Positions 26,150 through 50,191 of a stretch of DNA of 64,000 nt are shown here, piece by piece. The position numbers and the translations under genes are program-made. The DNA is from Tardiphaga sp. P9-11 (GTDB taxonomy: Bacteria; Pseudomonadota; Alphaproteobacteria; Rhizobiales; Xanthobacteraceae). The DNA lies in assembly GCF_008329525.1 (NCBI RefSeq), contig NZ_NPKQ01000015.1, forward strand, positions 1 to 64,000, read 5' to 3'. Every line of letters starts with the position of its first letter. The stretch's first letter is position 1. Below the pieces are notes generated by a model. The model was given only the letters and a program-made list of their open reading frames with translations, was not told the origin of the DNA and made no database searches.

Positions 26150-26161
26150 ACACTTCCGTAT
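26150..26161 (+). promoter_or_regulatory. Regulon dyad site A (ACAC-TTCC-GTAT)
   Basis: Fits GAYAC-N4-GTATARTK as GACAC-TTCC-GTATAATG, with a TATAAT -10 box built in. It faces the histidine kinase at 26475, with an unusually long leader of over 300 bp. Confidence 0.6.
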
Positions 26162-26474
26162 AATGTTCGTCAAAGGATTGATAGTCGATAAAGAGGCCTA
26201 GGTCGTAGCTGGTATGGTGAAACTGTTTGGATGCTGTGTCGAGCGCCGAAGCACGGACGAGAACGTCAGCTTTTTTGTTCAATCCGGGTCGAAGAGCTTG
26301 CACTGGGCGTTCCATGGCCGGGCCGGCGAATGCGACGCCACCAGGGACGGGGAAAGTGGGCTCATTTCGATATCCAAGGCTCCCATTTGATGACGCTGTT
26401 CTTCGCGAAGGATTACGGGCAACGCCCCTGAGCGCGCTCAACCCTTCGTCCGTTCATGCGGAGACGTACGTGTC

Positions 26475-27179
26475 ATGGTCATAAAGTACAAGCCGGGGTG
26501 CGGCGAAGACGCATTGCTCAAAACGGCCGCGCTAAAGCATGATTACAACAACTCGATCCAGAGCATCATCAGCATGCTCGAACTCCTGCAGCAAAGAGTA
26601 AATGGCGGCATTGACGGCGGCGTGGATGACCTCATTGAAGCCGGGCATCGCGCGTTGGACCGAGTCGGCGAGCAGGCCAGGGGATTAGCCCAAAACGGGC
26701 AAAGTCGCTCCCCTCCTCTAGTTCATCTAAACCGATGTATTTCTGGCCTTAACTCTCAGCTTGCGTCCCTGCTGGGGTCCTGCATCGAACTGAGCATGTC
26801 GATCTCAGAGGAAGATCTCTGGATCTCCGCTGATCTGCATCGATTGGAAAGCGCTATAATAAATCTAGTTCTGAATGCACGGGACGCCATGCCCAACGGC
26901 GGAAAGCTGATCATTCAGACGGGACTGGTGCAAGACGGGAAACGCCAGTGTTCATCGTATGCCAGCCTTAGGATTATTGATAACGGTTGCGGGATGGCTG
27001 CGGCGATCCTCGCGCGAGCGCTCGACTTCTCCTATACAACGAAGCACAGCCAAGCCGGGCGCGGCTTGGGGCTATGGTCGGTAAGAGACTTTGTGAGCGA
27101 CTTGCAGGGAGAGATAGTGCTGCGTAGCATCGTGAACGAGGGTACATCAGCGGAGCTCTTGCTGCCGCTTCAAGAGTAG
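26475..27179 (+). CDS. Short soluble histidine kinase
   Basis: A 234-residue kinase with no sensor or membrane segment. The phosphoacceptor segment is LKHDYNNSIQSI with His22, followed by a dimerisation helix pair. The ATP-binding domain has N-box NLVLNARDAM (about 131-140), DNGCGM, and the F/G2 region FSYTTKHSQAGRGLGL. It resembles the HDFNN-type kinases that take input from other proteins. No response regulator is adjacent; the orphan receiver at 46231 and the FixJ-like regulator at 46835 share the same upstream dyad or neighbourhood and are candidate partners. Confidence 0.8.
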   Translation: MVIKYKPGCGEDALLKTAALKHDYNNSIQSIISMLELLQQRVNGGIDGGVDDLIEAGHRALDRVGEQARGLAQNGQSRSPPLVHLNRCISGLNSQLASLLGSCIELSMSISEEDLWISADLHRLESAIINLVLNARDAMPNGGKLIIQTGLVQDGKRQCSSYASLRIIDNGCGMAAAILARALDFSYTTKHSQAGRGLGLWSVRDFVSDLQGEIVLRSIVNEGTSAELLLPLQE

Positions 27180-27228
27180 CCCCCATTGTGAAGAGTGGAG
27201 CTCTCGCGCCTGGTTCACCGGCGCTCGG

Positions 27229-27573
27229 TCACAGCAATAGCTTTAACGGTGTAAGTGGTCCCATGGGGATAAGCTGAAATTCCATCATACCCGCCCTTCC
27301 CAACGGAAGTTTCGTCAACAGCGCCCGCGCCGTTTCTAAATCAGACATATTCAGGATGAAAACCACGCCGGCGGCGTTAGTTTGGGAGAACCACTGCTCG
27401 ATATAACCCTCGAGATGGAGGCGAACGGTTTCGCGTATCTCAAGCGGCATCGTTGAAGCCCGTGCAGCTCCGTCGCCCCGGCTGGTAACGGTCCCGATAG
27501 CCAGGATCTTCGTGGTGGAGATAGCCGAAGTCCGCGCGGTGCCGGTGCGATTCAAGTCGTCTGTTGCGGCCAT
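27229..27573 (-). CDS. Small alpha+beta-barrel-like protein, paralogue of 34352-34783
   Basis: A 114-residue protein with strand TTKILAIGTVTSR, a helix around PLEIRETVRLHLEGYIEQWF, strand AGVVFILNMSD, a helix, and the ending LPLGRAGMMEFQLIPMGPLTPL. The second half matches the gene at 34352-34783 almost position by position. The pattern suggests the dimeric alpha+beta barrel fold used by muconolactone-isomerase- and YCII-like proteins, but I cannot assign a reaction. A regulon dyad lies 73 bp upstream. It has no signal peptide, unlike its paralogue. Confidence 0.7.
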   Translation of the reverse strand: MAATDDLNRTGTARTSAISTTKILAIGTVTSRGDGAARASTMPLEIRETVRLHLEGYIEQWFSQTNAAGVVFILNMSDLETARALLTKLPLGRAGMMEFQLIPMGPLTPLKLLL

Positions 27574-27645
27574 ATCTGATCTCGCGAGTTATAGAACACG
27601 AAGTGTACCGACCAAGAGTATGACCGAGTCCGTTACCCGGCAACT

Positions 27646-27657
27646 ATACGCGTGTAT
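27646..27657 (-). promoter_or_regulatory. Regulon dyad site B (ATAC-ACGC-GTAT)
   Basis: On the minus strand it reads AATAC-ACGC-GTATAGTTG, a perfect 4+4 dyad fused to a TATAGT -10 box, 73 bp before the start of the small barrel protein gene. Confidence 0.7.
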
Positions 27658-27821
27658 TGAGTAATCACCTCTGGCGACCTGAGCGCAAGCTCTATGGAGG
27701 TCGTGGCGACTGGGGGCGGAGTGCGGTCAAACAGAGGCGCCGCTCGTCTAAGTGCCCGCAATCAGTCGACTCGGGCGACGATCTCGCCGGTAGGGCTCGC
27801 GCTCCGTCAGAGGGGCCCCGG

Positions 27822-28751
27822 TTAGGACGAAGGAAGCGGGGCCGCGAACGCAGCGGCGTTTCGCTTTACGAATTCTTTCACTGACATCGGGGAAATGCCA
27901 GTTAGACGTTCAACGTCGTCGCTATGGCGATCGTACCGATTGTCCTGATGCAGCTGAGCCATCGTCGCTACGTGCGAAATCACATGTGGCGGCATGCCGA
28001 AGGTCGTGAGCTGCTGCTTCATGGCTTCGAGAGGCACGTCTACAAACGAAATTGTGCGGCCGAGCGCTTCAGAGAATTCACGCGCGACCGCTTTCATGTC
28101 CTGCGAAACCGGGCCCGTGAGATGATAAGTCTTTCCGATATGCGCCGCCGGATCGCTCAGTATGGCAGCAATGGTACGTGCCACGTCCACTGCGGCGATA
28201 GCGGAGTTCTTTCCGGTACCGAACGGTGCCATGATCTTATCCTGCAGCGAAACCGTTTTCGTGCTCTGCAAGAAAAGACCTTCCATAAAGGCCGTCGGCC
28301 TTACCTCTACAACCGGCAAACCCGACCAGGTGAGGATCTGCTCAGCGAGCCAATGTTGTTTCTGTTGTGGGCTCGCTGTTGTATTGAAGATATCCATCTC
28401 TTTCACTGTCATTTGAGACAGATTGACGAATGCCTTCACTTGGTGGTGTTTGGCAACCACAGCTACGTTAGTGGCAGCTTCGAGATAACTTGGCGAAACC
28501 GCCATTGTGAAGCAGATCCGCTCGCAGCCCTCCATGGCACGGTGTACAGCCATGAGGTCGAGCAGATCACCAACGACTACTTCGGCGCCAAGATCCCGTA
28601 AGCTGGCAGCACGATCGTCGTCGACCCGAACGTGAGCCCGAACTTTAAATCCTCCCCTCAAGAGTAAATCCGTGACCGTTCGTCCGACGGAGCCAATGCG
28701 CCCAGCCGCGCCGGTTACCAAGATCGGAAGATCATATGCGTGCGTGTTCAT
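27822..28751 (-). CDS. NmrA-family NAD(P)-binding protein
   Basis: A 309-residue Rossmann-fold protein with TGAAGRIGSVGRTV near residue 13, RAHVRVDDDRAASLRDLGAEVV as the adenosine-ribose region, and VNLSQMTV at the active-site strand. It is a paralogue of the protein at 20451-21332; the C-terminal block (LGRTISFVDVPLEAMKQQL...GMPPHVISHVATMAQLH) aligns well with that copy. Proteins of this kind are annotated as NAD(P)H-dependent reductases or redox sensors. It precedes, on the same strand, the small barrel-protein gene, and follows an Asp-type hydrolase gene by 145 bp. Confidence 0.78.
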   Translation of the reverse strand: MNTHAYDLPILVTGAAGRIGSVGRTVTDLLLRGGFKVRAHVRVDDDRAASLRDLGAEVVVGDLLDLMAVHRAMEGCERICFTMAVSPSYLEAATNVAVVAKHHQVKAFVNLSQMTVKEMDIFNTTASPQQKQHWLAEQILTWSGLPVVEVRPTAFMEGLFLQSTKTVSLQDKIMAPFGTGKNSAIAAVDVARTIAAILSDPAAHIGKTYHLTGPVSQDMKAVAREFSEALGRTISFVDVPLEAMKQQLTTFGMPPHVISHVATMAQLHQDNRYDRHSDDVERLTGISPMSVKEFVKRNAAAFAAPLPSS

Positions 28752-28896
28752 AGTTTCACCGTTTTAGATTCTAACTGAAGACGCGTTCATTTTGCGCCAG
28801 AAAAACCTTCCGAGCGCACAATCACCTTGTTGGTTGTGTCGTCCGCGCCACCTTGACCCGTTCATTGCGCTTGCCGATTAGAGCGTCGTGCCTTTA

Positions 28897-29769
28897 TCAC
28901 GCAAGCATAAGTCTCGCGGTCTCCTCCGGCATGTCCAACTGAAGCCAATGGCCAGCCGGTAGGAAATTTAAACTTGCGTGACTGATGTAACCGGCGAGCT
29001 CACGAGCAACGCCGCTAGTCAGGTATGGATCATGATCCCCCCATATGACCTTCACCGGGACATTTATCGTGGAGAGCGACCCTAAGCGTGCCGTATTTGC
29101 AGCAACCTCTGGCAGAAGCAGAGCAGTCATCTGCGCAAAGGCGTCTGAGGAGTTGCGGACACCGGAGAAGTTCTCGTTGATGACCGGGGCGACCGTTGTC
29201 TGAAAGCGGGTCCGCAAGTGTTCTGGTAGGGCATCCGAGAACTTCTTTTGCTGAAACTCGAGGAGCCAGCGCATCTGGGCTTGATCATGCAGTAACGCGG
29301 AGCTGAGGGCCTTTAGGCTATCAGTGGCAAACAGCATAATGAGCTCGGGAACACGAATGCTGGGGCCTGCCGCATAGAGGCAATTGAGCAGAGTGATGGC
29401 GGAGACGCGTGCGGGATGAGCGAGCGCATAGTTAAGTGCTGCTGGGCCGGACGCATCGTGCGCGACTGGAACGAATGAATCGAGCTGAAGTCCGTCCGCA
29501 ACGGCTTCAAGATCGGCAAGCTGCTGAGCGAAACTGTAGACAGCGCCAGTTGGGCGGTCTGAATCGCCATAGCCCAGAAAGTCGAATGCGATAACTCTCC
29601 GTCCGGCGTCTACGAGGTACGGGATCAGGCTATCGTAAACGCGCTGGTTATCTGGGAAACCATGCATTACCACCATCGCGTCACCCTTTCCGGCATAATC
29701 TCTGACGTAGAGACGTCCTTGCGCAGTTGGGATTCGGTGCTCAGAAAAAGACGGCAGACTGATAGCCAT
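28897..29769 (-). CDS. Alpha/beta hydrolase with Asp nucleophile (epoxide hydrolase/dehalogenase type), copy 1
   Basis: A 290-residue enzyme. The oxyanion motif HGFPDN lies at 36-41. The nucleophile elbow VAHDASGP places Asp105 where serine hydrolases have Ser. The acid is probably Asp247 in GDHDPY, and the base is His274 in AGHWLQ. HGxP plus an Asp nucleophile points to epoxide hydrolases and haloalkane dehalogenases. Which reaction applies cannot be read from sequence alone. Two more paralogues follow at 33266 and 34780. A good Shine-Dalgarno (AGGAGG) precedes the ATG at 29769. Confidence 0.82.
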   Translation of the reverse strand: MAISLPSFSEHRIPTAQGRLYVRDYAGKGDAMVVMHGFPDNQRVYDSLIPYLVDAGRRVIAFDFLGYGDSDRPTGAVYSFAQQLADLEAVADGLQLDSFVPVAHDASGPAALNYALAHPARVSAITLLNCLYAAGPSIRVPELIMLFATDSLKALSSALLHDQAQMRWLLEFQQKKFSDALPEHLRTRFQTTVAPVINENFSGVRNSSDAFAQMTALLLPEVAANTARLGSLSTINVPVKVIWGDHDPYLTSGVARELAGYISHASLNFLPAGHWLQLDMPEETARLMLA

Positions 29770-30153
29770 GAGTCCTCCTTCGCGGCCGGAGACCGCTTGC
29801 TTAACGAACAGGGCAAATAGGCAGGGAAGTTACGCACTGCCGTGTCGGGCGGACCAGTATCTTGAAGTATAATCGGCGGGGCAAAGAGTGACTAAAGAGG
29901 TGGCGGGTGTGGCCGGGAGGCTCACGGTTAGCAAGGTCGCTCTTGACGGGCTAGGTCATTGTTGCAACCAATCCGGCCACGGCGCTAAACGGATGCGAGC
30001 GATGATGTTGGCGCATGAGATCAGGCCGCCTCCCCTTGAACGAGGTGGATTTAAGCGCATATTCGGCGAAACGTATGCCTCTGAACGCCGGTGTCTAGGC
30101 CTTGGCGTCTAACTCTACCGCGGTCGCGGCCGCCAGTCATAATAGGTGATAAT
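29770..30153. other. Intergenic region between divergent genes
   Basis: No convincing gene; frames here lack protein-like composition. It separates the hydrolase and the GlxA-type regulator, which diverge. A degenerate dyad at 29859-29870 (ATCT-TGAA-GTAT followed by AATCG) may be a weak copy of the regulon site. Confidence 0.5.
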
Positions 30154-31104
30154 ATGCATCGGGTCGGCTTTGTGGTGCCTCCCAACTTCCAATTGATGAG
30201 CCTCGCGGCCATGACGGCGTTCGAGGTGGCAAATTTGCCATCGCCGAAGCCGCATTACCGCGTCACTGTGCTGTCTGAGAAGGGTGGCCCTGTGCGATCG
30301 TCAGGCGGGTTCAGCGTAAACACCACAAAACTCGCTGATCAGCGCTTCGATACAATGATTTTGGGATCTATCACGTCTCTGGAGCCGCCTGTTCCGTCCC
30401 AGCGCCTGATCAAACGCATCCAGCGGGCGTCGGAAAGCGCGAGGCGCTCCGCCTCGATCTGCACCGGAGCGTTCTATCTCGCGGAAGCGGGTATTCTCGA
30501 TGGGCGACGGGCAACAACGCATTGGTTTCACGCCGCGAGCTTTAGGACGCGATTTCCGCGCATTAGAATGGAGCAAGAGCGGATCTATATCAACGATGGC
30601 CCTGTTTGGACGTCGGCTGGAATGTCCGCGGGTATAGACATGGTACTCGCCATGATCGAGAACGACTTGGGTACTCAGCACGCTAAAGAAGTCGCCAAGA
30701 TCCTCGTTATAAACGAGCGGCGGCGGGGCGGTCGAAAGCAGCAGTCGGTTTTACTCGAGATGGTGGCAAAGACTGAGCGAATTGACGAGGTAATCGCATA
30801 TATTCGCCAAAACCTAAAAAAAGACCTGTCTGTCGACGAACTTGCCGAGGTTGCCAACCTTAGTCCCCGCCAATTCCGCCGCGTATTTGCGATGGAGATC
30901 GGTCAGACGCCGGCAAAAGTCGTTGAGACGCTGAGAATGGAAGCGGCTCAGTTTATGATTGAGGAAGGGCAACATCCGGTCAATGCAGTTGCGCGCGAGG
31001 TTGGCTTCGGAGATCCAGAACGCATGCGCCGCGCGTTTCGCCGCAACTTCGCGTCTTCACCTCGTGCGCTGCGGAAGAAGGCTAAAGTTGAGGTGCGTGC
31101 CTAG
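30154..31104 (+). CDS. GlxA-type AraC-family regulator
   Basis: A 316-residue regulator with an N-terminal DJ-1/PfpI-like domain (about 1-180), including SICTGAFYLAEAG at the nucleophile-cysteine position and TSAGMSAGIDMVLAMIE. A C-terminal AraC helix-turn-helix pair (about 210-305) follows: LSVDELAEVANLSPRQFRRVF and VNAVAREVGFGDPERMRRAFRR. These proteins activate or repress catabolic operons in response to small molecules. I chose the ATG at 30154 (AGGTG 7 bp upstream) over one 63 bp earlier. It is convergent with the MFS gene and may control the neighbouring hydrolase set. Confidence 0.88.
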   Translation: MHRVGFVVPPNFQLMSLAAMTAFEVANLPSPKPHYRVTVLSEKGGPVRSSGGFSVNTTKLADQRFDTMILGSITSLEPPVPSQRLIKRIQRASESARRSASICTGAFYLAEAGILDGRRATTHWFHAASFRTRFPRIRMEQERIYINDGPVWTSAGMSAGIDMVLAMIENDLGTQHAKEVAKILVINERRRGGRKQQSVLLEMVAKTERIDEVIAYIRQNLKKDLSVDELAEVANLSPRQFRRVFAMEIGQTPAKVVETLRMEAAQFMIEEGQHPVNAVAREVGFGDPERMRRAFRRNFASSPRALRKKAKVEVRA

Positions 31105-31123
31105 CAGCATGCTCGCTCGGAGC

Positions 31124-32674
31124 CTATTCGTATTCTGGGATGACTTCCGGAATACGGGAATCTTGTACCGTCGGCGTCACTAAAACCCAGCTACCAAGGG
31201 CGCCACCTGCAGCGACGAGGCCGGCGGCAGCGAAGAGCATCTGGTATCCTGCAGTGAAGCTTCCCAGCACGACATTCGCAGGAAGGCCGTACGATCGGCC
31301 TGCGACGGTAAGATAACCAGAAGCAATAGCCTCACTCGCCAATTTTAGGCTCGCCTGGTCGACAAGCGTCGACTGCGAAAGCTCACTGGCGATGCGCTGA
31401 TACAAAATGGCTCCGAGGCCTGCGAAGCCGATTACAACGCCAGCAAATCGGACTGTGCCCCCGACGCCCGCGGCCATTCCAGCTCGATTGGGCGGAATAA
31501 CGCTTAAGCCAACTCTGGCTGTTTCGCCATTCAAGATGCCTGCGCCCGTTCCTGCGACAGCCATTCCCACCATTATCATAGGGACATTGAAGCTGGGAGC
31601 CAGGCAAGCCAACGTAAGCAATCCAACGCTCACCATGACCAGACCAACTGTCAGTAACGTGCGACCAGATACCCAGTGGGAAAAATGTCTGGCCACGATC
31701 CGAGGGACAACGAAGAGCGGCATTGCCAAAGGGAGCATTAACAAACCGGCCGATATCGGCGAGGCGCCCATCCCGCCCTGAAAGTACAAAGGGATATACG
31801 TGAGCATTGTTAGCAGCGATGCTGCATACGCAAGACCTGCAATGTTTGCGCCGATATATATAGGCTGGCGAAAAAAACGAAGATCCAGCATAGGGCGTCG
31901 TTGCTTGGCCTCGACGACAACAAAGGATACGAAGAAAGCTAGCGAAGCCGCAAGAGAGCCTATCAACAGACCGTCCGTCCATCCGCGGTGATTGCCGGAT
32001 ATGAGCACAAATGTCAGCATGAACAAGGCAAGTGCGAGCGTCGTGGATCCGGCAATATCGATCGTCGCACTGTCCGGGTCACGAGACTCATCAACCGCGT
32101 AGATACTCAAACCGATCATTAAAACGCCAACGGGCACGTTCACGTAGAATGCCCACTCCCAACCTAGCGTTTGGGTTATGACGCCGCCGGCCAAAGGCCC
32201 GAGGGTCATTGCGATGCCTATGACTGATCCCCAAAACGCGAACGCCGGCGCTCGGCTTGCTCCTTGGAATTCCTTGGAAAGAAGCGCCAGCGCGGCGCTA
32301 AGCAGCAATGCCGCCCCAACGCCTTGAGCTGCGCGGGCGGCGTTAAGAATCGTAACGTTTGGGGACGCGCCACATAGTAATGACGCCAGGGTGAAAAGGG
32401 AGAGACCGATTATGAGTACTCGCTTGCGGCCGAAGCGATCCGCAAGCGCACCCGCCGGCATTATCAGCGCGGCGAATGTCAGCGTATAAGCGCTAATCAC
32501 CCACTCGATGGACGCAAAGTCGGCATTCAGCGTTTGGACGATGGACGGAAGGGAGACGGCAACAATATTGCCGTCGAGGTTGATCATGAATGACGGTACC
32601 GAAACGCATAGTAGCAGCAGAAACGTTCTGTCGCGGCCCTCCCCCGTCATTCGAACAGACCGGCGCCAGTGCAT
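31124..32674 (-). CDS. MFS efflux transporter, DHA2 (14-TM) family
   Basis: A 516-residue transporter with about 14 hydrophobic helices. Family motif A is readable as GALADRFGRKRVLI (about 75-88), and the antiporter motif C region as GPLAGGVITQTLGWEWAFYVNVP (about 158-180). It matches EmrB/QacA-type drug exporters. Its ATG directly follows the stop of the carbonic anhydrase gene (TAGATG), so the two are translationally linked. It has no adaptor protein gene next to it. Confidence 0.88.
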   Translation of the reverse strand: MHWRRSVRMTGEGRDRTFLLLLCVSVPSFMINLDGNIVAVSLPSIVQTLNADFASIEWVISAYTLTFAALIMPAGALADRFGRKRVLIIGLSLFTLASLLCGASPNVTILNAARAAQGVGAALLLSAALALLSKEFQGASRAPAFAFWGSVIGIAMTLGPLAGGVITQTLGWEWAFYVNVPVGVLMIGLSIYAVDESRDPDSATIDIAGSTTLALALFMLTFVLISGNHRGWTDGLLIGSLAASLAFFVSFVVVEAKQRRPMLDLRFFRQPIYIGANIAGLAYAASLLTMLTYIPLYFQGGMGASPISAGLLMLPLAMPLFVVPRIVARHFSHWVSGRTLLTVGLVMVSVGLLTLACLAPSFNVPMIMVGMAVAGTGAGILNGETARVGLSVIPPNRAGMAAGVGGTVRFAGVVIGFAGLGAILYQRIASELSQSTLVDQASLKLASEAIASGYLTVAGRSYGLPANVVLGSFTAGYQMLFAAAGLVAAGGALGSWVLVTPTVQDSRIPEVIPEYE

Positions 32675-33229
32675 CTACGTCGCGGCTTCTTCGCGCAGAC
32701 GGGACGGCGGCACCACAGTAGAAATCGTGCCGTTAGCCACGTCATAGACAACTCCTGAGATCATGAAGCCTGCGGGCAGTACGGGATTTGCCTTAAGCGC
32801 AGCAACGTCCAACTGGACGGCCTCGTAGGGGTCTGTCACAGCCATCTTATCGAGCTGCGCGTTTGTGACGTCTAGATGCTTTGCGAGGAGCTCCGGCGCA
32901 TGTTTATAGCATGGAATGATGCCGCAGTCGGTATGATGAAGAACGATGAGATTCCATCCCTCCCCTATCGGTTTACCTGCGCCGTTTGCTACGGTTTGCA
33001 AGATCATTAGGGTCTCGAGCAAGGCTCGATTGATGCGCCCGCCCACATTCCGGACAACGACAGCTTCCCCGGGCTTTAGCTCGAAGATGTCGGCCGGATC
33101 CACACGACCGTCGACGCAACCAATGATTACAGTCCGCATTGACGGTAGCATCTTCAGATCGTTTGCGAAGCCGTTCGAAGCAAAGTGCGTATTACGCTCT
33201 GATAGGGTTTCCAGAAATTCCAACGTCAT
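32675..33229 (-). CDS. Beta-class carbonic anhydrase
   Basis: A 184-residue enzyme that interconverts CO2 and bicarbonate. The zinc ligands are Cys38 (GCVDGRVDP, with the Asp40/Arg42 dyad), His99 and Cys102 (LHHTDCG). Length matches the short beta-carbonic anhydrases. It ends exactly where the DHA2 transporter gene begins, an unusual pairing. AAGGAG lies upstream of the ATG at 33229. A regulatory or pH-related link to the transporter is possible but unproven. Confidence 0.9.
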   Translation of the reverse strand: MTLEFLETLSERNTHFASNGFANDLKMLPSMRTVIIGCVDGRVDPADIFELKPGEAVVVRNVGGRINRALLETLMILQTVANGAGKPIGEGWNLIVLHHTDCGIIPCYKHAPELLAKHLDVTNAQLDKMAVTDPYEAVQLDVAALKANPVLPAGFMISGVVYDVANGTISTVVPPSRLREEAAT

Positions 33230-33265
33230 TCTCCTTCAGGGTTTCTTGGGCAGACCGCTGCTGCG

Positions 33266-34276: not shown

Positions 34277-34351
34277 ACAGAAGCCTCCACTCCCGAGCAT
34301 CGTTCTCGGGCGTCTATTCCAACCTGCCGTTCAAGGACCGGTCGCGAGCCA

Positions 34352-34783
34352 CTATTGTTTTTGGGAGGGCGTCAATAATGCCCCAAGCGGCTGAAGCGGA
34401 CCGAGCGGGGTGAGTTCGAACGTCATCATCCCAGCTTGTCCGAGCGGCAGAGGATCAAGAACCGCCTTAGCAGCGTCTACGGTCGTTACATTCAGCAGAA
34501 ACACGACGCCTGTCTGATCGGGCTTGGCATACCAATCAGAAATCTTACCGTCCAGGTAGAGCTTGAGGGTTGCTGGTACTTCCCGCGCAAGGATGGCCGG
34601 CAATGCTGCCGCGGTTGCCTTTGACGTTAACGTGCCGATCGCCAGTACCCGGGTGACCGGCCGCTGAGACATATCTGGCGCCTTGGCCGCCGTCTGGGCG
34701 ATGCTGGGAGGGGCGAACACGAGAGCCATCAAGCCGGCGTACACGAGAACGGCCTGGGCGCGTTTAATCGGAGTTTGCGTCAT
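34352..34783 (-). CDS. Exported small alpha+beta-barrel-like protein
   Basis: A 143-residue protein with a signal peptide (about 1-29, KRAQAVLVYAGLMALVFAPPSIAQ), followed by a domain paralogous to the gene at 27229-27573: VTRVLAIGTLTSK, GVVFLLNVTTVDAAKAVLDPLPLGQAGMM, and LTPLGPLQPL. The start at 34783 overlaps the end of the upstream hydrolase gene by 4 bp (ATGA) with GGAGA upstream. Genes for an exported hydrolase and this exported small protein lie together, so they may act on the same periplasmic compound. Confidence 0.75.
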   Translation of the reverse strand: MTQTPIKRAQAVLVYAGLMALVFAPPSIAQTAAKAPDMSQRPVTRVLAIGTLTSKATAAALPAILAREVPATLKLYLDGKISDWYAKPDQTGVVFLLNVTTVDAAKAVLDPLPLGQAGMMTFELTPLGPLQPLGALLTPSQKQ

Positions 34784-35649
34784 GCCAACATCTCCTTTGC
34801 CACGAGGGCTGGCGCATCTGCTTGGAGCCAATGGCCAGCCTGGATCGGGTGAAACGATGCGTGTTTGAAATGGGACGCACGATTGCGGCCCACTTGGGTT
34901 GTCATATATGGATCGAACTCGCCCCAGATGACCTTGACCGGGACGTCCAGGCGCTTCAACTCCGGTAGGCGCTTCGTGTTGCGGGCGAGCTCTGCGAAAA
35001 AATGGGACGCCAGCTGCATGAAGGCTGGACCGCTGCTTGGTTGTTGAGTGAAATTGTCAGCGATAAGCTGCCCGACGCCTTGATTAAACCGATCTCGCTG
35101 CTCGGCGGGTTGTGGATCGCTGAACCTGCTTTTTTGCCAGCCCAGAAGCCAGCCTAACTGTTCTGGGCTCTGCGCAAACGATCCCGCTAAGGCGGCCAGA
35201 CTCTCGCTTGCAAAAAGCGTGACCATTTCAGGCCACAAAATCGGAAAGTTGTCGTCGTAGCCGGAATTGAGGATCATCAATTCAGCGATCAGATCTGGAT
35301 GTGCCAGCGCGTAATTTATCGCGGTGGGGCCGGACGAATCGTGCGCAACAGGCACAAACTTTCCCAGATCAAGCTGGCTTACCACAGCATCCAGGTCACC
35401 GAGCTGGTTTTCAAATGTGTAAATTCCGTTGGCGGGCTTCGCCGACCGACCAAATCCCAGGAAATCAAAGGTCACTACACGGCGACCGCTGGCGACCAAC
35501 TCCGGTACTAGCGCATCATAGATCCCGAGATTGTCTGGAAATCCGTGCATAAGGACGAATGCTGGTCCAGCGCCGCCGTAGTCGCGCGCGTACACGTTGC
35601 CCTGTGTGCGGGCTATCTGGTGCTCCCTGTAGGCAACGGCCTTGGTCAT
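34780..35649 (-). CDS. Alpha/beta hydrolase with Asp nucleophile, copy 3
   Basis: A 289-residue paralogue of copies 1 and 2 with HGFPDN at 35-40, VAHDSSGP with Asp104, WGEFDPYMT as acid region and AGHWLQ near residue 273. No signal peptide is present with the ATG at 35649, which has GAGAGG upstream; an upstream in-frame ATG would add 78 residues of non-protein-like sequence running through the dyad site. It is the first gene of an operon with the small barrel protein. A regulon dyad lies 79 bp upstream, and a MarR gene follows behind it. Confidence 0.82.
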   Translation of the reverse strand: MTKAVAYREHQIARTQGNVYARDYGGAGPAFVLMHGFPDNLGIYDALVPELVASGRRVVTFDFLGFGRSAKPANGIYTFENQLGDLDAVVSQLDLGKFVPVAHDSSGPTAINYALAHPDLIAELMILNSGYDDNFPILWPEMVTLFASESLAALAGSFAQSPEQLGWLLGWQKSRFSDPQPAEQRDRFNQGVGQLIADNFTQQPSSGPAFMQLASHFFAELARNTKRLPELKRLDVPVKVIWGEFDPYMTTQVGRNRASHFKHASFHPIQAGHWLQADAPALVAKEMLA

Positions 35650-35727
35650 GGCGAACCTCTCGTCTGCAGTTTGCTCGAGCTCACGAGCTTGGGCAGAGCT
35701 TAAATCCGCGAAACCAACAACAAAACT

Positions 35728-35739
35728 ATACGTGCGTAT
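35728..35739 (-). promoter_or_regulatory. Regulon dyad site C (ATAC-GCAC-GTAT)
   Basis: On the minus strand, GATAC-GCAC-GTATAGTTTTG: a perfect dyad fused to TATAGT, 79 bp before the hydrolase copy 3 start. Confidence 0.7.
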
Positions 35740-35887
35740 CGAACCGGAGATCAGGTGCCTCGCAAGACCGATGTGTGAACGCACATGGACGGAGGATCGT
35801 CCAGCATTGCACGTGGCAGTTGCGATACCTGAATTCGCAGGCCATTGGCGTTCCGCTAGCCTCGTTCCAGGCCCCTCGCGCATGAAT

Positions 35888-36406: not shown

Positions 36407-36500
36407 TGTCAACCCCTGTTACACGCGAGCAGTCGTTGCTGACACCAACCCGGCGATCGCGTCATGAGGAAATCCTTCGCTGTTATCCGTGTTATAAACG

Positions 36501-36512
36501 ATACCCACCTAT
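36501..36512 (+). promoter_or_regulatory. Regulon dyad site D (ATAC-CCAC-CTAT)
   Basis: GATAC-CCAC-CTATAATGAC, one mismatch in the second arm, with TATAAT. It lies between the divergent MarR (start 36406) and TetR (start 36709) genes and faces the TetR gene. Confidence 0.55.
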
Positions 36513-36708
36513 AATGACACAAAAAACGCAATAATCAGTACGGTAATAATGATTACGGGGTGGGGTGCATGAGTGCGATGGCCTTGCGAAACATCGCGGC
36601 GATGCGTAGCTCTTGCCATCGACATGCCCGGCGACATTACTTAATTGTCTGCCGGCGGACGGCATGGTGGGCGCAGTAGCGGCGCAACGTATTGGAGGAG
36701 GCTGTTGC

Positions 36709-37353
36709 GTGAGTAACAATGCCCGCGGACAAACCAGATCTACGTCTAAGAAAGCGAAAGCGATGCAAAACACGCTCACGATACTGCTGGCGACGGCGCG
36801 TAGAGTGTACATCGAGAATGGTTTCCGCGGCCTTTCTGTCGAATCGGTCGGCATGCGAGCTGGTGTGCCGCTCAACGAAGCACTTGCACTCACCCCGTCC
36901 CCCCTCGCCCTCTTCCGTCGGTCGGTCTCCGTCAAGCTTGAGCGATTTCTCGACGCGGCAGCGATCGCTGTGGGCGGAAGAGACATCCAGGCGACGCTGG
37001 AGATAATGCTCTTTGAGTGTGGTCGCCTCGCCTACGACAGTGATTTGCGGAACATTGGTGCGCGAGCGGTGGCCGAGCAGGAACAGTATCCGGAGGTGGC
37101 GAGCGGATTCTATGAGGAATCTATCGACCGACTGCCAATCGCCCTGGACCTGTGGCTGTCTCATTTAAGGCGCAGCGACTTAATCGCGCTGGAGGATCCG
37201 AAATCGGCCGCATGGATGCTCGTCGGGATGATGACAGCCGAGCTGAGGCTCGTGGCCGCTGGTGGCCTGCAAGCAGAGATCGCTAACGACGATTCCATGC
37301 TGCGAGCGAGGCAATGCGCATCGTTGTTTCTGCGAGGCTGCTTGAAAAAGTAG
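36709..37353 (+). CDS. TetR-family regulator
   Basis: A 214-residue regulator starting at GTG 36709, with GGAGGAGG 9 bp upstream. The N-terminal helix-turn-helix (about 20-65) reads ILLATARRVYIENGFRGLSVESVGMRAGV, but the turn before recognition (PLNEALALTPS) departs from the usual GVSKGTLYxHF pattern, so DNA specificity may be unusual. The C-terminal ligand domain ends in RARQCASLFLRGCLKK, matching the end of the TetR at 40729. It has no adjacent co-directional partner. Confidence 0.72.
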   Translation: MSNNARGQTRSTSKKAKAMQNTLTILLATARRVYIENGFRGLSVESVGMRAGVPLNEALALTPSPLALFRRSVSVKLERFLDAAAIAVGGRDIQATLEIMLFECGRLAYDSDLRNIGARAVAEQEQYPEVASGFYEESIDRLPIALDLWLSHLRRSDLIALEDPKSAAWMLVGMMTAELRLVAAGGLQAEIANDDSMLRARQCASLFLRGCLKK

Positions 37354-37396
37354 CGGGAGAGTGCGCGGTCGGCGTGGGGCCTGGTAGATGAGAGAA

Positions 37397-40695: not shown

Positions 40696-40728
40696 CCCGA
40701 GGACATCGCCGATGGTAGTCTCGACGAA

Positions 40729-41397: not shown

Positions 41398-41412
41398 GCC
41401 TTTAGATGATGC

Positions 41413-41451
41413 CTGTCATTCCATTGACAGTTTGAGTATGGGGCCTAATTT
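41413..41451 (+). promoter_or_regulatory. emrAB-type promoter with overlapping operator
   Basis: TTGACA (41424-41429), a 16-bp spacer and TAATTT (41446-41451). The dyad CTGTCA (41413-41418), spacer TTCCAT, TGACAG (41425-41430) overlaps the -35 box, a good site for the divergent TetR repressor. Confidence 0.65.
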
Positions 41452-41518
41452 GGAAAATATCAAGTTTCCTAAATCGCCTCTCGGCCCTTATGAGAGCGAG
41501 CGTCAACAGGAGCGTATA

Positions 41519-42694: not shown

Positions 42695-42731
42695 ACAAGC
42701 TCAAGCAACGAGGCTCAGGGAGTGACGTGCC

Positions 42732-44357: not shown

Positions 44358-44383
44358 GCGCGGTGCAGGCAAGCGTGCTAGGA

Positions 44384-45979
44384 TCACCTGGGTTTTGGCG
44401 TGAAGGGACCAGGCGGCGGCTTGGACATGAACGCAATGCATGCGATGCCAGCTATAGCGGCGAAGAACGCCAGCCAGAAGCCGTCGATAAACGATAAGGT
44501 ATTCGCTTCGCGCTTTACCGTCGCAGCGATCACGCTTACTGCGCGTTCAGACGCGGTTGCCGCATCGGCTTTCGCCAAACTGCTTGCAAGCTTCGCAATT
44601 CGCTCGGACAAATTGGCGTCCCCGTCTAGAAGGTGTTGGCCGAGGCTATTTGAGTGCTGTTGCTCCCGCACTCTGAGCCATGTCGCCATTAATGCCGCTC
44701 CAAACTCGGAGCCTCCCAGCCTCACTACCTGAACGTATGCCGCAAATGCCGTTGAGCGAGCCAGATTTGAGCTCGCGAGAGCGATCATCATTAATGGCAG
44801 CAGGCAAAACGATTGGCCAATCGACTGCAAGAGGAGCATCGGTACGAAATCGTCGATGGACCACGCGTGGGTCAGCCGAGTGCCAAGCAGGCCCGCCGCA
44901 GCAAATGCGGAGAACCCGCAGAGCACAGTCAGTCTCGCGTCATAGAATTTGATAAGATAGACTGTTGCTGGAAGCAGTATGAGCATAGGAACCGCTGTAT
45001 AGGCCGCGAATACACTTCCCGATTGTTCCGGCCTGAGTTGGCCAACCACTGCGAGGAAGTTTGGCGCGAGCGCTGCGTTCGATAGACTTGTCAGCGCATA
45101 AAGTACGATCGCGATCAGCGCGAGGCCGATATTCCGTGACATAATAACGTCGACCTCCGCCCAAGGATGTTCAACCAGCACTTCATTGACGAAAAACCCG
45201 CTGACAAGTGCAGCGCCGCCGAGCAGAAGCGACACTACGGTTCCGGATTGAAGCCAGTCCAGCCTGTTTCCTTGATCCAAGCCGGCGTACACCATGGCCA
45301 TGCCAGCCCCGAGAAGGACAATTCCTCCCCAGTCCGCCTTAGCCAGTAACTCTACGTTTATCCGTTCCGGGGGAGTGCCTAGAAAGGCGCAGAGCGCCAT
45401 TAATGGCGCGACCAACGCGTCCTGCCAGAACATCCATTGCCATCCGACGCGATCCACATAAAAGCCAACCACGGCCGTGACTGTGTTGAGCGACAGCCCT
45501 ACCCTTGCGGAGTAGATTGCCAGCGCCAGGATCCACCACCGCATTGGAAGATTGCGAAATATGATCAGAAGCGCCGCGGGAACGAACGTTCCCAGCAATA
45601 ATCCCCGGAGGATACCAAGTGTGATCAAAAGGTCGAAATCGTGCACCAGCGGCAGCAGGAGAGAAAGAACGGCATACAGAATGCTTGGCCACCCGAGCAC
45701 GCGCCGCAGGCCAAAAACAGTTGCAAGCCACGCAACTGCGGGCGCGACAGCAATCTGTGAAGCCGTCGTCGCTGTGCTAAGCCACGTGCCTTCGTCATAA
45801 CCGAGGGAGTATGCCCCTCGTAGGTCTCCCAGCGCGACTGAAAACAACCGTGTATCAAAGTTTGCTAGAAAGGAACCGACGAGGACGGCTCCGACCGCAA
45901 ACAATGGACGTTGTGAGAGTGCTCCGGTATTCGTCGGGCGGCTATCGCTGCCGCTTCCGGCTGGCATCGCGGTGCCCAT
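44384..45979 (-). CDS. MFS transporter, DHA2-related
   Basis: A 531-residue 14-helix protein. The N-terminal pattern GSFLANFDTRLFSVALGDLRGAYSLGYDEGTWLSTA and the region VGWQWMFWQDALVAPLMALCAFLGTPP resemble the EmrB group but motif C is weak, so it may not be a proton-coupled drug exporter in the strict sense. It has no adaptor gene beside it. It starts within 260 bp of the receiver gene at 46231, facing away, and shares the intergenic region containing dyad site E. Confidence 0.8.
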   Translation of the reverse strand: MGTAMPAGSGSDSRPTNTGALSQRPLFAVGAVLVGSFLANFDTRLFSVALGDLRGAYSLGYDEGTWLSTATTASQIAVAPAVAWLATVFGLRRVLGWPSILYAVLSLLLPLVHDFDLLITLGILRGLLLGTFVPAALLIIFRNLPMRWWILALAIYSARVGLSLNTVTAVVGFYVDRVGWQWMFWQDALVAPLMALCAFLGTPPERINVELLAKADWGGIVLLGAGMAMVYAGLDQGNRLDWLQSGTVVSLLLGGAALVSGFFVNEVLVEHPWAEVDVIMSRNIGLALIAIVLYALTSLSNAALAPNFLAVVGQLRPEQSGSVFAAYTAVPMLILLPATVYLIKFYDARLTVLCGFSAFAAAGLLGTRLTHAWSIDDFVPMLLLQSIGQSFCLLPLMMIALASSNLARSTAFAAYVQVVRLGGSEFGAALMATWLRVREQQHSNSLGQHLLDGDANLSERIAKLASSLAKADAATASERAVSVIAATVKREANTLSFIDGFWLAFFAAIAGIACIAFMSKPPPGPFTPKPR

Positions 45980-46163
45980 GAGTCTGCCGCCTACCCCTCG
46001 TTGGAGGGTCTGTTTGTACGAGGAAGAACCCGGACCCGCGCTGATCTCGCACGCTGATCTGTCGCCTTCTTCGGTCGGACATAATGCAGATCGTAGGACC
46101 AGCGTTATGCTGTCGCTTAGCCTCAGCTGGCTGATCTTTAATAAGAACGGGCCAGCCGCAACG

Positions 46164-46175
46164 ATACTTCCGTAT
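46164..46175 (+). promoter_or_regulatory. Regulon dyad site E (ATAC-TTCC-GTAT)
   Basis: GATAC-TTCC-GTATAGTATC, a perfect 12-bp dyad. In addition GATAC (46163-46167) and GTATC (46177-46181) form an outer inverted repeat. It includes TATAGT and lies 55 bp before the receiver gene. Confidence 0.75.
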
Positions 46176-46230
46176 AGTATCAGACCCCGTCGTTCTCGGG
46201 GATCGTCGTTTGCCTACATCGGTACGCCGC

Positions 46231-46593
46231 ATGAACAAGAAGCCTGTAATCGCGATCATTGACGACGACGCGCCATTGCGCGACGCGATAGACAATCTCT
46301 TGCGAGCAGCCGGATTTGAGACGCAGCTCTTCGCTTCAGGCGAGGCATTCCTCGAAGGTTTGTCGACGGGTGCCAGCGTCTTGGTCAGCGATATTCGCAT
46401 GTACGATTTATCGGGGTTGGATCTAAAGGCTGTACTCAATGAACGCGGAATTACTTTGCCGGTGATCTTCATAACAGCTGTTCTGAACGACGACATCGTC
46501 GCTCAGGCGACGCTGGCCGGCGCGATTACATGTCTTGGAAAGCCGTTCAACGATGAAGAGTTGATCGCTGCAATTCGGTCTGCTCTCTCATAG
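46231..46593 (+). CDS. Single-domain response regulator (receiver only)
   Basis: A 120-residue CheY-like receiver with the acidic pair in AIIDDDAP (11-13), phosphoacceptor Asp54 in LVSDIRMYD, Thr in FITA and Lys in GKPFNDEE (about 101). No output domain follows. FixJ-like receivers of this kind often serve as phosphate sinks or shuttle intermediates between kinases and a DNA-binding regulator. The ATG at 46231 is preferred to one 21 bp earlier. It carries dyad site E upstream and precedes the FixJ-like regulator by about 240 bp. Confidence 0.87.
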   Translation: MNKKPVIAIIDDDAPLRDAIDNLLRAAGFETQLFASGEAFLEGLSTGASVLVSDIRMYDLSGLDLKAVLNERGITLPVIFITAVLNDDIVAQATLAGAITCLGKPFNDEELIAAIRSALS

Positions 46594-46834
46594 GAAGAGT
46601 GCGAACGCAGTACGCCAAGGCTCAGTATGATCGGGTGGACGCGCAACTCTTAGTCGTATCTCGCCTGTCGGTTCGCGTTATCATGCCAGAAACAGCGGAA
46701 TGTCCGGAAAGGAGGGATATACGCCCTTCGTAATGGGGACTCTCAGCGGTAGCGTGCGCTTAATCAAAGCGTGCGTGCTGCCGATCCCGGTTTCCGTCAG
46801 TCCGACGAACAATGCTGTTGAGAGTGTTTCAGCC

Positions 46835-47560
46835 ATGTCAAGATCGGCGGATTCCGTCCAAGCTGCCCCGAGAGGACACGACGCTACCAAGCCAATACCT
46901 CGAGGACTGCTCGCTCCCGCGGTGTACATCATTGATGACGATGAAGGGGCACGCGAGGGACTCGCGAACCTTTTGGCATCGGAAGGAATGGCGTCTGCAT
47001 CCTACGCGTCACCTCAGGAGTTTCTTCGTGCTTGGAGTCCGACCGACAGCGGCTGCGTGATACTTGACATTCGTTTTCCAGACGAAAGCGGCCTCGATTT
47101 TCAGCTTCAAATGAACGAGCGCGGCATCGCGCTACCAGTTATTCTGGTAACCGGCTTTGCCGACATTGAGTCCTCGGTTAGGGGGCTGAAGGCTGGCGCG
47201 ATTGACTTCCTATTGAAGCCTTATGATGATGGGCATCTGCTCAGCGCGATAGCCGATGCTTTCGAACAAGACGCTTCGCGTGTGCGCCGGGAGCGAGATC
47301 AAGCGAACTTGGTCGACCGGTTCGCGACCCTCACTTTGCGCGAGCAGCAAGTCTTCTCTCTTGTTGTCCGTGGCCTAATGAATAAACAAGTGGCTGCTGC
47401 TATGAACTTAAGCGAGATCACCGTCAAGGTTCATCGCGGCTCGATGATGCGCAAGATGGATCTCCGGACTTTGGCAGACTTAGTCCGTGCGTCCGAGCGT
47501 CTGATTGAAATGCGGTTGTTGGCTGACGTCAGCCTGAATTCTACTCGACGTTCTCGTTAA
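46835..47560 (+). CDS. FixJ/NarL-type response regulator
   Basis: A 241-residue regulator with receiver motifs VYIIDDDEG, phosphoacceptor Asp78 in VILDIRFPDESGLD and FLLKPYDD. A LuxR-type helix-turn-helix follows (LTLREQQVFSLVVRGLMNKQVAAAMNLSEITVKVHRGSMMRKM, about 173-215). The start is uncertain: in-frame ATGs at 46700 and 46733 would add 45 or 34 residues. It belongs to the FixJ/StyR group that pairs with PAS-domain kinases; the PAS kinase at 50260 is the natural partner. Its targets may include the ATAC-N4-GTAT dyads. Confidence 0.85.
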   Translation: MSRSADSVQAAPRGHDATKPIPRGLLAPAVYIIDDDEGAREGLANLLASEGMASASYASPQEFLRAWSPTDSGCVILDIRFPDESGLDFQLQMNERGIALPVILVTGFADIESSVRGLKAGAIDFLLKPYDDGHLLSAIADAFEQDASRVRRERDQANLVDRFATLTLREQQVFSLVVRGLMNKQVAAAMNLSEITVKVHRGSMMRKMDLRTLADLVRASERLIEMRLLADVSLNSTRRSR

Positions 47561-47691
47561 CTGCCCCCTTCGCACAAGATGGCAAATCCATCGCTTACGG
47601 GGGCACGCCGTCTCTACCCGTAGGCACAGCCACCATCGAATGTTCCGGTTTGACCGTGGGGCATTTTCGATGGCTCCCGGCGGCGGCTTGC

Positions 47692-48174
47692 TTAAACCGG
47701 CTTAAACCGACGGAGCGCTAAAATCGTTGCGATCACAAGTAAGAGCAGGCCGGCGCCTTGGAATATAATAAACGGCGGCTCTGATTGGGTCGGCGCGAGA
47801 GCGCGGAGCGGCTCCCATTTTAGGAAGCCCTGAATGATGAGGACAACGACGTTGAAGTAGAGCGAAAGCGCCGCGGAAACGACGTATACCGATCTCCAGA
47901 TGCCCAGCAGCCGTTTGGGATATAGCGCAAGAATCGCGACCGTCAGACAAACAAGAGAAATTGCGCCGACGACGTGCGAGGGAAGCAGGCCGTTGGCAGG
48001 GAATACATATCCGCTCAGGCTAGTGATGGCCGTCGTTAGCAAGAAAATCACTGTGATCGTGGGCCACGAGCGCCCCACGATCATTCCGCCTATCGTGTAT
48101 AAGCCGCTTCCAATGGCAACCAGACTGATCAGCACATGAAGTAACGTGAACGTGCCCAGACTCATTCCTAGCAT
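47692..48174 (-). CDS. Four-helix membrane protein, unknown
   Basis: A 160-residue protein with four or five hydrophobic helices (about 6-28, 36-58, 65-83, 92-114 and 135-155). The pattern LHVLISLVAIGSGLY resembles small inner-membrane proteins that are common in Bradyrhizobium and Burkholderia, without a known function. The stop codon lies in a short direct repeat (CTTAAACCGG/CTTAAACCGA). It is divergent from the DUF302 gene. Confidence 0.65.
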   Translation of the reverse strand: MLGMSLGTFTLLHVLISLVAIGSGLYTIGGMIVGRSWPTITVIFLLTTAITSLSGYVFPANGLLPSHVVGAISLVCLTVAILALYPKRLLGIWRSVYVVSAALSLYFNVVVLIIQGFLKWEPLRALAPTQSEPPFIIFQGAGLLLLVIATILALRRFKPV

Positions 48175-48258
48175 AACGTTTTATCCAATGTTTTACTGAC
48201 TTTAGGGCGACGGCTTCTGATCTCGTGATCCTAGCTGGTTCGCGGCCCGATGTTGATG

Positions 48259-48270
48259 ACACCTACGTAT
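48259..48270 (+). promoter_or_regulatory. Regulon dyad site F (ACAC-CTAC-GTAT)
   Basis: GACAC-CTAC-GTATAGTTGC, one mismatch in the first arm, with TATAGT. It faces the DUF302 gene about 130 bp downstream; TATAGTTGC is shared with site B. Confidence 0.65.
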
Positions 48271-48397
48271 AGTTGCTCAACTTCCGCGGCCACTGCACGG
48301 TGAATACCTGACGCTGCCTCTTGCCGAGCGGTCCTCGCAAGCCATCCGCACAGCCTTCAACATGACCGCTCGCGCACTGACAATGAATAGAGAGATC

Positions 48398-48928
48398 ATG
48401 GCTGACCGACTTCCGCACCGCGTATCGCGTGCATTGGCAACCAGCTCAATCGAGCGCATCGACGTAATCACGTCTCTCTCATTTACTGAGCTCATCGACG
48501 CCTTCGAGTCCTCTTTAGGCCGTTGGGAGCCGCACGTTGGTGACGCGCTGGTACGTGATCAAGTGTCCTGGCAGGAAGCAAAGATAAGCATAGGCGCAAT
48601 GGCCGGGCCGCGTGGCCTAATGATATTCTCGAAGATCAATCAGGGAGAGATTGCGTCGTTGGCGGGAACGCCGCGGTCATCAGTCATCTACCTCGTTGGC
48701 AACCCCCTAATAGCGACAACTATTCTTCAGGTGGACATTCGCGCTGGCATGCTGGTCCCATTTAGGGTGGAATTATACGAAGACGGTCAGGGCGGAATCC
48801 TCTCTTACGATGCGCCGTCTTCCTTCCTCGGTTCGCTCGATAATCCGGCGCTTACCGAAATCGGAAAAGCTCTGGACGAGAAGATGTCGGGGGTTGCTGC
48901 AGAGCTCACCTCCCGCCCGGGCTCGTGA
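48398..48928 (+). CDS. DUF302-domain protein
   Basis: A 176-residue soluble protein whose second half carries the DUF302 signature: VIYLVGNPLIATTILQVDIRAG, LVPFRVELYED and GGILSYDAPSSFLG. DUF302 proteins adopt a small alpha/beta fold and often accompany redox or metal-stress genes; no reaction is established. The ATG at 48398 has GAGAGA upstream; an ATG at 48362 in the same frame is possible. Dyad site F places it in the putative shared regulon. Confidence 0.75.
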   Translation: MADRLPHRVSRALATSSIERIDVITSLSFTELIDAFESSLGRWEPHVGDALVRDQVSWQEAKISIGAMAGPRGLMIFSKINQGEIASLAGTPRSSVIYLVGNPLIATTILQVDIRAGMLVPFRVELYEDGQGGILSYDAPSSFLGSLDNPALTEIGKALDEKMSGVAAELTSRPGS

Positions 48929-49039
48929 GGTAACACAGACGCTGTCTTACGGATGACAGCACCGGCTGACTGATGGCCTGAACGGCACCATAACCGCCGC
49001 CATCGAATGGCGGCGGCGCAGATCCAGACGGTTTTATGG

Positions 49040-50005
49040 CTACCCTTTGAGGAACGCCAGCAAATCGGCGTTAAGCCTGTCTGCCATGGTTACGCAAAGC
49101 CCGTGAGGGGCTCCCTGATAGACTTTGAAGGTCACCTTAGGGGCGAGTTTTGCTGACTTCGTCGAAGAAATACCTATTGGCACGATCTGGTCGTCGTCTC
49201 CATGAACGATGAGTGTGGGCACGCTCATTTTCTTAAGATCAGCCGTGAAATCGGTTTCTGAGAACGCTTTGATGCACTCGAACTGAGCCCTGATACTCCC
49301 CTGCATGCCTTGCGCCCAGAAGGCATCAATCATGCCCTGCTGCACCTTTGCATTTGGCCTATTGAAGCCAAAGAACGGCATAGCGAGTCCTTTGAAAAAC
49401 GATGAGCGGTCTGCGCTCAGTCCCGCCCGAAGGCCATCAAATGCTTCGATCGGGGCGGCTTCTGGATTGTCTGCCGCTTTGAGCATGCGAGGTGGAACGG
49501 AAGAAATTAATACAATCTTGCTGACCCGTCCAACGCCATGGCGGCCGACATAGCGGGCAACTTCCCCGCCTCCCGCCGAATGACCAACCAGGGTTACTCC
49601 ATCAAGATCAAGGGACTCGATGACCGCTGCCAGATCGTCCGCGTAAGTATTCATGTCGTTGCCCCCGGAGGGCTGGTCCGAGCGTCCATGCCCACGGCGG
49701 TCGTGCGCAATCACCCGGTATCCGTTGGAAGACAAAAAGAGCATTTGACTGTCCCATGCATCGCTCGTGAGCGGCCACCCGTGTGAGAAAATGACCGGCC
49801 TGCCGTTGCCCCAGTCTTTGTAAAACAGCTTAGCGCCGTCCTTCGCGGAGATCGTTGACCCGACTGTGCGACTTGGCGCAGCTCTAGCGCTCTTCGCGGC
49901 CAGGGACGTTTTCGGAATACTTACTGCCACTGCGGCTCCGCCAGCCGCGAGCAGAATCTTTCGGCGGGAAGTATTGCCCGCCGGGGTGTGCGTATCTTGT
50001 TTCAT
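49040..50005 (-). CDS. Tat-exported haloperoxidase-like alpha/beta hydrolase
   Basis: A 321-residue protein of the cofactor-free chloroperoxidase (perhydrolase/arylesterase) group. A Tat signal ([17 protein letters not shown], about 13-29) is followed by [16 protein letters not shown], nucleophile elbow GHSAGGG (Ser nucleophile), acid in [10 protein letters not shown] and His in GAPHGLCVT. Unlike the other hydrolases here it uses Ser. It would act in the periplasm on esters or produce peracids. The ATG at 50005 has AAGGA 8 bp upstream. Dyad site G lies 71 bp upstream. Confidence 0.87.
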
Positions 50006-50075
50006 GACATATTCCTTGCTGGCGACCACAGCGTCGCAAACAGCAATTCGACCGATTTTTTGGCTGCGAACCATT

Positions 50076-50087
50076 ATACGGAGGTGT
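50076..50087 (-). promoter_or_regulatory. Regulon dyad site G (ACAC-CTCC-GTAT)
   Basis: On the minus strand, TACAC-CTCC-GTATAATGG with TATAAT, 71 bp before the haloperoxidase start. It shares a longer block with site A (ACACYTCCGTATAATG). Confidence 0.65.
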
Positions 50088-50179
50088 ACGACTGAACGTC
50101 GGCACGGGCGGCGGAAGCGCGGCCCCCTTGCCGCGGACTCGATCGTGAAATGGCCACTAGCTGTAGGACGCCTGCGACG

Positions 50180-50191
50180 ATATGAATGTAT
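50180..50191 (+). promoter_or_regulatory. Regulon dyad site H (ATAT-GAAT-GTAT)
   Basis: GATAT-GAAT-GTATAATTG, one mismatch in the first arm, with TATAAT, 69 bp before the PAS kinase start. Sites G and H are about 100 bp apart and point in opposite directions. Confidence 0.6.

Follow-up and report, generated by a model that had tools for sequence, protein, structure and literature searches.

A dyad with the core AYAC-N4-GTAT recurs in front of eight units spread over 24 kb of a 64,000-nucleotide stretch of Tardiphaga sp. P9-11 (contig NZ_NPKQ01000015.1, positions 1 to 64,000; referred to here as the window and lying on contig C7 of our numbering), and it is probably the operator of the FixJ/StyR-like response regulator that this replicon itself encodes at 46892-47560, which would control these eight units as a class II activator. 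In the proposed mechanism, the regulator would be phosphorylated by a histidine kinase (50260 and/or 26475) and would occupy, as a dimer, the core AYAC-N4-GTAT (family-wide AWACCTNNGTATRR; in the window YGAYAC-N4-GTATAR). With the dyad centred at about -43.5, immediately before a weak -35 that lies 17 bp from a -10-like YANNNT hexamer, the bound regulator would bring in sigma-70 polymerase in the manner of a class II activator. Its predicted targets comprise kinases, a receiver-only protein, two alpha/beta hydrolases, a DUF302 protein, a TetR regulator and a small protein, with the receiver-only protein probably providing negative feedback or acting as a phosphate sink. We infer binding, phosphorylation, activation rather than repression, and feedback from the sequence and its comparison with related loci, as set out below.

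Dyad sites in the window and across the genome

All eight sites named in the original prediction are present on the strands it gave, with coordinates shifted by no more than about four bases (Table 1), and its count of three perfect dyads (ATAC-N4-GTAT at 27642, 35724 and 46163) and five with one mismatch holds. Allowing up to two mismatches, ATACNNNNGTATARTK occurs 19 times in the window versus 3.97 times (standard deviation 1.94) in shuffled sequence, and none of 100 shuffles reaches 19; the longer GAYAC pattern at three mismatches is weakly over chance (48 versus 35.8, equalled by four of 100 shuffles). The signal of the window resides in near-exact sites. All eight are intergenic on our own gene map, for which, as elsewhere in this analysis, genes were called with a simple codon-usage finder made for the purpose and not with a published caller. 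In six sites the motif ends 52, 65, 67, 69, 75 and 88 bp before the likely start codon; in the remaining two, those of the kinase gene at 26475 and the TetR gene, it lies farther away.

The genome of the host comprises 6.16 Mb in 30 contigs, and the reversed pattern served as control. A scan of the whole genome returned eight exact matches to RYACNNNNGTATARTK and none to its control, a clustering beyond chance: five matches lie in this 24 kb, two on contig C25, both adjoining FixJ-like response regulator genes, and one on C26 within a called gene. Similarly, AYACNNNNGTATRRTK (AYACN4GTATRRTK) gave 11 matches versus one in the control, distributed as five in the window, five in about 19 kb of C25 and one on C12, so that 10 of the 11 fall in the C7 and C25 islands, both of which carry such regulators. 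The shorter AC-N4-GTATRRT was found at 17 places in the scanned stretches of this genome, 16 of them intergenic and upstream of a gene, with the exception on C26. Loose matching at two to three mismatches was dropped, its counts being near or under those of the controls; at up to two mismatches the genome gives 69 matches versus 95 for the reversed control, which marks loose matches as noise.

Four full-length relatives of the window regulator are encoded in the same genome, at C25:159816, C12:166657, C25:178992 and, more distant, C25:238990. On C25 (L040:9877) and on C12 as well, the regulator gene is followed by a receiver-only gene with the dyad in front of it; no AC-N4-GTATRRT site was found in the 19.9 kb surrounding the more distant regulator C25:238990. 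The sister island on C25, at about 150-190 kb (L039, L040), contains CATAC-N4-GTATGAT-like dyads near genes for DUF417, MatE and isochorismatase-like proteins, hydrolases, a kinase and two FixJ-like regulators. One protein of this island (L040:6163-8694) combines a major facilitator superfamily (MFS) transporter with a histidine-kinase ATPase domain and adjoins a FixJ-like regulator.

Table 1. Dyad regions, signalling genes and nearby promoter-like elements in the window
Feature	Position	Strand	Remarks
16-bp dyad region	26148..26163	+	precedes 234-aa HATPase-type kinase gene 26475-27179; -10-like GATAAA 26187-26192; predicted transcript start to ATG 276 bp
Short histidine-kinase-like protein (HATPase_c)	26475..27179	+	from domain models
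16-bp dyad region, perfect core	27644..27659	-	precedes gene for unassigned 114-aa protein 27229-27573; -10-like TACTCT 27615-27620
16-bp dyad region, perfect core	35726..35741	-	precedes alpha/beta hydrolase gene 34780-35649; -10-like TAAGCT 35697-35702
16-bp dyad region	36499..36514	+	precedes AefR-like TetR gene (36613 or 36763 to 37353); -10-like TACGGT 36539-36544, one base beyond usual offset
16-bp dyad region, perfect core	46162..46177	+	precedes receiver-only gene 46231-46593; -10-like GATCGT 46201-46206
Receiver-only protein	46231..46593	+	keeps acceptor Asp54, Thr82 and Lys104
FixJ/StyR-like response regulator, proposed binder	46892..47560	+	receiver and GerE/LuxR helix-turn-helix
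16-bp dyad region	48257..48272	+	precedes DUF302 gene 48362-48928; -10-like CACGGT 48296-48301
16-bp dyad region	50074..50089	-	precedes alpha/beta hydrolase gene 49040-50005 (or 50029); no convincing -10 found at usual offset (CGAATT there)
16-bp dyad region, weakest left arm (ATAT)	50178..50193	+	precedes PAS histidine kinase gene 50260-52251; A at +36 present, hexamer poor (CAACTC)
PAS-HisKA-HATPase histidine kinase	50260..52251	+	from domain models

Related regulators, their target genes and promoter geometry

The dyad is linked to this regulator family in many species. Among 29 loci from relatives, nine (L061-L064, L069-L072, L089) have it before a receiver-only gene downstream of the regulator, and in all nine the gene after the dyad encodes a receiver. 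L067 was left out of the regulator alignment, its chosen gene not being a regulator, and A2 took its place. In 80 named loci encoding regulator relatives (L090-L169, 1.49 Mb; the best 80 of more candidates, including Rhizobium, Bradyrhizobium, Sphingomonas, Pseudomonas, Paraburkholderia and others), AC-N4-GTATRRT has 91 matches versus eight for the reversed pattern, and counts for other spacings (3 for N3, 6 for N5, 22 for N6 and 11 for N7) indicate that N4 is preferred. Strict sites occur in 55 of these loci; 84 of the 91 lie between genes, in sequence of which 80% is called coding, and for 75 there is a gene on the same strand no more than 400 bp away. Numbering the A of AC as 0, bases outside the search pattern are conserved as well (A at -2 in 95%, C at +2 in 72%, T at +3 in 69%), and position +10 in the right arm of the family is A or G at frequencies of 0.46 and 0.54. 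These observations suggest that in many other bacteria a switch of this type accompanies the genes for relatives of the regulator.

A search of 249 genomes of the order with AAACCTNMGTATRATT, the receiver-gene variant, which had been derived in part from sites next to such genes, returned nine places versus three for the control. Eight of the nine precede a receiver-domain gene, six of them with a FixJ-like regulator adjacent as well and two with the receiver only, and one has neither.

The genes downstream of the dyads were tallied as 70 distinct genes within 400 bp and compared with 70 control genes drawn randomly from 818 further genes in the 55 loci that have sites. A receiver domain is encoded by 34 downstream genes versus two controls and a HATPase domain by 13 versus four, while alpha/beta hydrolase models match four versus two; the targets in the window share this family theme of kinases, receiver and hydrolases. 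That the downstream genes are so often receivers suggests feedback. In an alignment of 32 receiver-only proteins (29 encoded by named-locus genes picked by size and place, and three from the host's own genome), the acceptor Asp is kept in 30, and the number of Cys residues ranges from one to four, with two proteins having four.

For the offset profile, the seven of 91 named-locus sites within called genes were left out, and 82 distinct sites of the 84 intergenic ones, with enough flanking sequence, were retained. A YANNNT hexamer begins at +35 in 28 of these 82 sites and at any other offset in at most three, and A occupies +36 in 71%. Once sites at least 50% alike outside the motif are removed, the hexamer is found at +35 in 23 of 69 sites and elsewhere in at most three, and with AWAC-N4-GTA alone (195 intergenic sites) it is found there 25 times versus a mean of 3.4 at other offsets. 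Selecting on AWAC-N4-GT plus the hexamer (45 sites, coding sequence included) recovers A, T, R, R, T and T at +8 to +13. The hexamer downstream of the dyad is thus fixed in its offset. Position +36 is A in six of the eight window sites and seven of ten sister-island sites (backgrounds 0.22 and 0.19), together 13 of 18 sites of the host genome; the full YANNNT at +35 or +36 is seen in four of eight and four of ten, respectively. If the hexamer is taken as the -10 element, the T at +12 becomes the first base of a -35 element with a 17-bp spacer, and the centre of the dyad falls at -43.5. GTATRR accordingly looks like the right arm of a dyad, with the T(T) that follows resembling the start of a -35 element, and a centre near -43.5, deduced from the conserved hexamer offset, would be an activator position, a class II site being one at about -40 that overlaps or adjoins the -35. 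For the eight window sites, in order of position, this geometry predicts transcript starts near 26199, 27608, 35690, 36550, 46213, 48308, 50038 and 50229.

Operator specificity and competing explanations

Base preferences of the operator were compared with the recognition helix in 48 loci that have an intergenic site and just one full regulator. The residue at the position of StyR Val176 (Val versus Ile or Leu) tracks T at -1 and A at +10, as matched in one and none, respectively, of 5000 permutations uncorrected for kinship. Loci with Val (10 loci, 11 sites) have T at -1 in 9 of 11 sites and A at +10 in 10 of 11, those with Ile (31 loci, 50 sites) more often have A at -1 (27) and G at +10 (31), and those with Leu are mixed. 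The window regulator has Val, and A stands at +10 in all eight window sites, where the pattern of the original prediction required it, and in six of six when G is allowed; T stands at -1 in five of the eight.

The same regulator might instead bind the dyad as a repressor, the GTATAAT right arm being the true -10 box and polymerase being blocked. The original prediction had likewise treated TATAAT/TATAGT as a -10 box without a common -35, and the element does resemble a -10 hexamer, its upstream side shows no common -35, and two of the eight window sites are without a usable downstream hexamer. The peak of YANNNT exactly at +35 and the conserved A at +36, in the family and in the host genome alike, speak against it, as does the family's right arm, in which TATG is as frequent as TATA. 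We dropped the TATAAT-as-minus-10 reading, on the conserved A at +36 and then on the hexamer peak, and consider repression through such a box unlikely. It is far less probable still that one of the TetR-family proteins of the window (36763, 40069 or 40729), the other binder suggested at the outset, represses these units through the dyad. One TetR gene itself has an upstream site, and relatives of two of the proteins are also encoded in the C25 island, but relatives of all three are absent from the 80 named loci, although intergenic sites are present in 52 of them, and from a 19.9-kb stretch of C12 that has a site (both by tblastn at E 1e-6, which misses divergent TetR proteins). An alternative-sigma promoter element, in which the motif would be no operator at all, would account for two conserved elements in fixed geometry, but the N4-spaced dyad has both arms conserved and its base preferences track the recognition helix of the regulator, and we give this explanation very little credence. 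What stands of the original prediction is that the dyad joins at least eight units in one likely regulon and that the FixJ-like candidate fits; its TetR candidate and its -10 assignment find no support.

Several results weigh against activation by the FixJ/StyR-like regulator or narrow its reach. In the window, the sites at 50074 and 50178 have a poor downstream hexamer or none, position -1 is C in three of eight sites, and G stands at -3 in six of eight where the family has Y; the pairing of kinase and regulator is proposed from neighbourhood. Among the sites selected on the hexamer, the mirrored Y-Y of the left side is less pronounced. No strict dyad was found before a receiver-only gene in the other 20 of the 29 relatives' loci, 25 of the 80 named loci have no strict AC-N4-GTATRRT site, and the N6 and N7 counts top those for N3 and N5 with no explanation. 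Two of the nine AAACCTNMGTATRATT places were known beforehand (the C12 site of the host and G009 from the relatives' loci), and the use of a receiver-gene variant makes the 249-genome search partly circular. A class-wide search of 289 genomes with AWACCTNNGTATRATT found 22 places in 10 genomes versus 10 for the reversed control, and without the repeat-rich genome G112 this becomes nine versus 10, no enrichment; only two of the nine, one of them in the host genome, have a regulator in the 3-kb locus, and the seven loci without one include five at no more than 44% G+C and two at 54 and 60%. In 40 other genomes near the host, AYACN4GTATRRTK occurs 42 times versus 35 in the control, no genome-wide excess. 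The motif is informative beside these regulators and not genome-wide. The AT-rich genome G112 (L171, L180-L191) holds 13 copies of AWACCTAGGTATAATT, apparently an unrelated repeat.

We tentatively extend the proposal, with slightly less than even confidence, to a large and little-characterised FixJ/StyR-like subfamily of Alpha-, Beta- and Gammaproteobacteria that would share operator, promoter layout and a receiver-only feedback gene, and in which the residue at the Val176 position would tune -1 and +10 and so insulate sister regulons, here those of this replicon, C25 and C12. If this is true, an operator, a promoter geometry and a list of targets can be predicted for many FixJ-like regulators whose role is unknown, and the host offers a simple test case for the insulation of paralogous two-component regulators in one cell, together with a self-contained signal-responsive regulon on a probable plasmid.

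Signalling partners, known systems and the replicon

The open reading frame of the regulator is listed from 46700, and homology starts near its residues 62-72. Membership in the NarL/FixJ family is indicated by Response_reg (83.1 bits, cut-off 30.2) and GerE (64.7 bits, cut-off 23.5), and relatives are found on 701 plasmid records, all of them below 60% identity. The kinase at 50260-52251 is, judged by neighbourhood, the likely cognate sensor. The protein at 26475-27179 is a possible second kinase, and the receiver-only protein at 46231-46593 is a likely feedback partner.

The best solved chain for the window regulator is 1yio (E 2.9e-48), followed by FixJ 5xso. The chain 1yio is that of StyR, and its K175, V176 and H179 agree with the residue numbers used in the paper on StyR-like regulators. 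In that paper, the FixJ-type StyR/TodT/TutB/TmoT group is said possibly to recognise ATAAACN4GTTTAT, and Lys175, Val176 and His179 are named as putative DNA contacts (PMC5874301); StyR activates from site STY2 at about -40 (PMC2442086). The StyR/TodT group resembles the window system in combining a receiver with a LuxR-type DNA-binding domain, in an N4 inverted repeat with an AC-N4-GT core and in a site near -40, the window position being deduced. The two differ in that the window protein, aligned with 1yio, keeps Lys175 and Val176 and has Gly for His179, and in that the window and family arms are AWAC/GTATRR in place of ATAAAC/GTTTAT. The predicted targets also differ, being kinases, receiver-only proteins and hydrolases in the window and an aromatic catabolic operon in the StyR/TodT group.

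In the FixL-FixJ-FixT system of Caulobacter and Sinorhizobium, a single-domain receiver raised by a FixJ-type regulator feeds back on the kinase as an inhibitor (PMC7078487). The window is alike in placing a receiver-only gene under what would be a FixJ-type regulator, with feedback predicted. The window regulator scores 176.7 bits against FixJ proper (NCBIfam NF006900), below the cut-off of 255. The window receiver-only protein has a single Cys and hence no 4-Cys Fe-S motif, in which it differs from Caulobacter FixT, and it keeps the acceptor Asp. The system probably works like StyR/FixJ while lacking tested defining features of both. No description of the motif was found in titles and abstracts of the open-access PMC literature, where a word search handles degenerate notation poorly and is weak evidence of absence.

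A replication initiator (RPA, 2318-3565) and two type IV coupling proteins (9680-11320 and 13133-14899) are encoded in the window, which has a G+C content of 57% where stretches from other contigs have 59-63%; we therefore regard contig C7 (70.6 kb) as a probable plasmid with transfer genes. Pfam and NCBIfam give no support to the label of small barrel protein that had been attached to the product of 27229-27573. Elsewhere in the window, 5306-7597 encodes a protein with a Tle1-like phospholipase catalytic domain, and at 53118-56814 a subtilase (S8) gene overlaps an AAA ATPase gene on the same strand.

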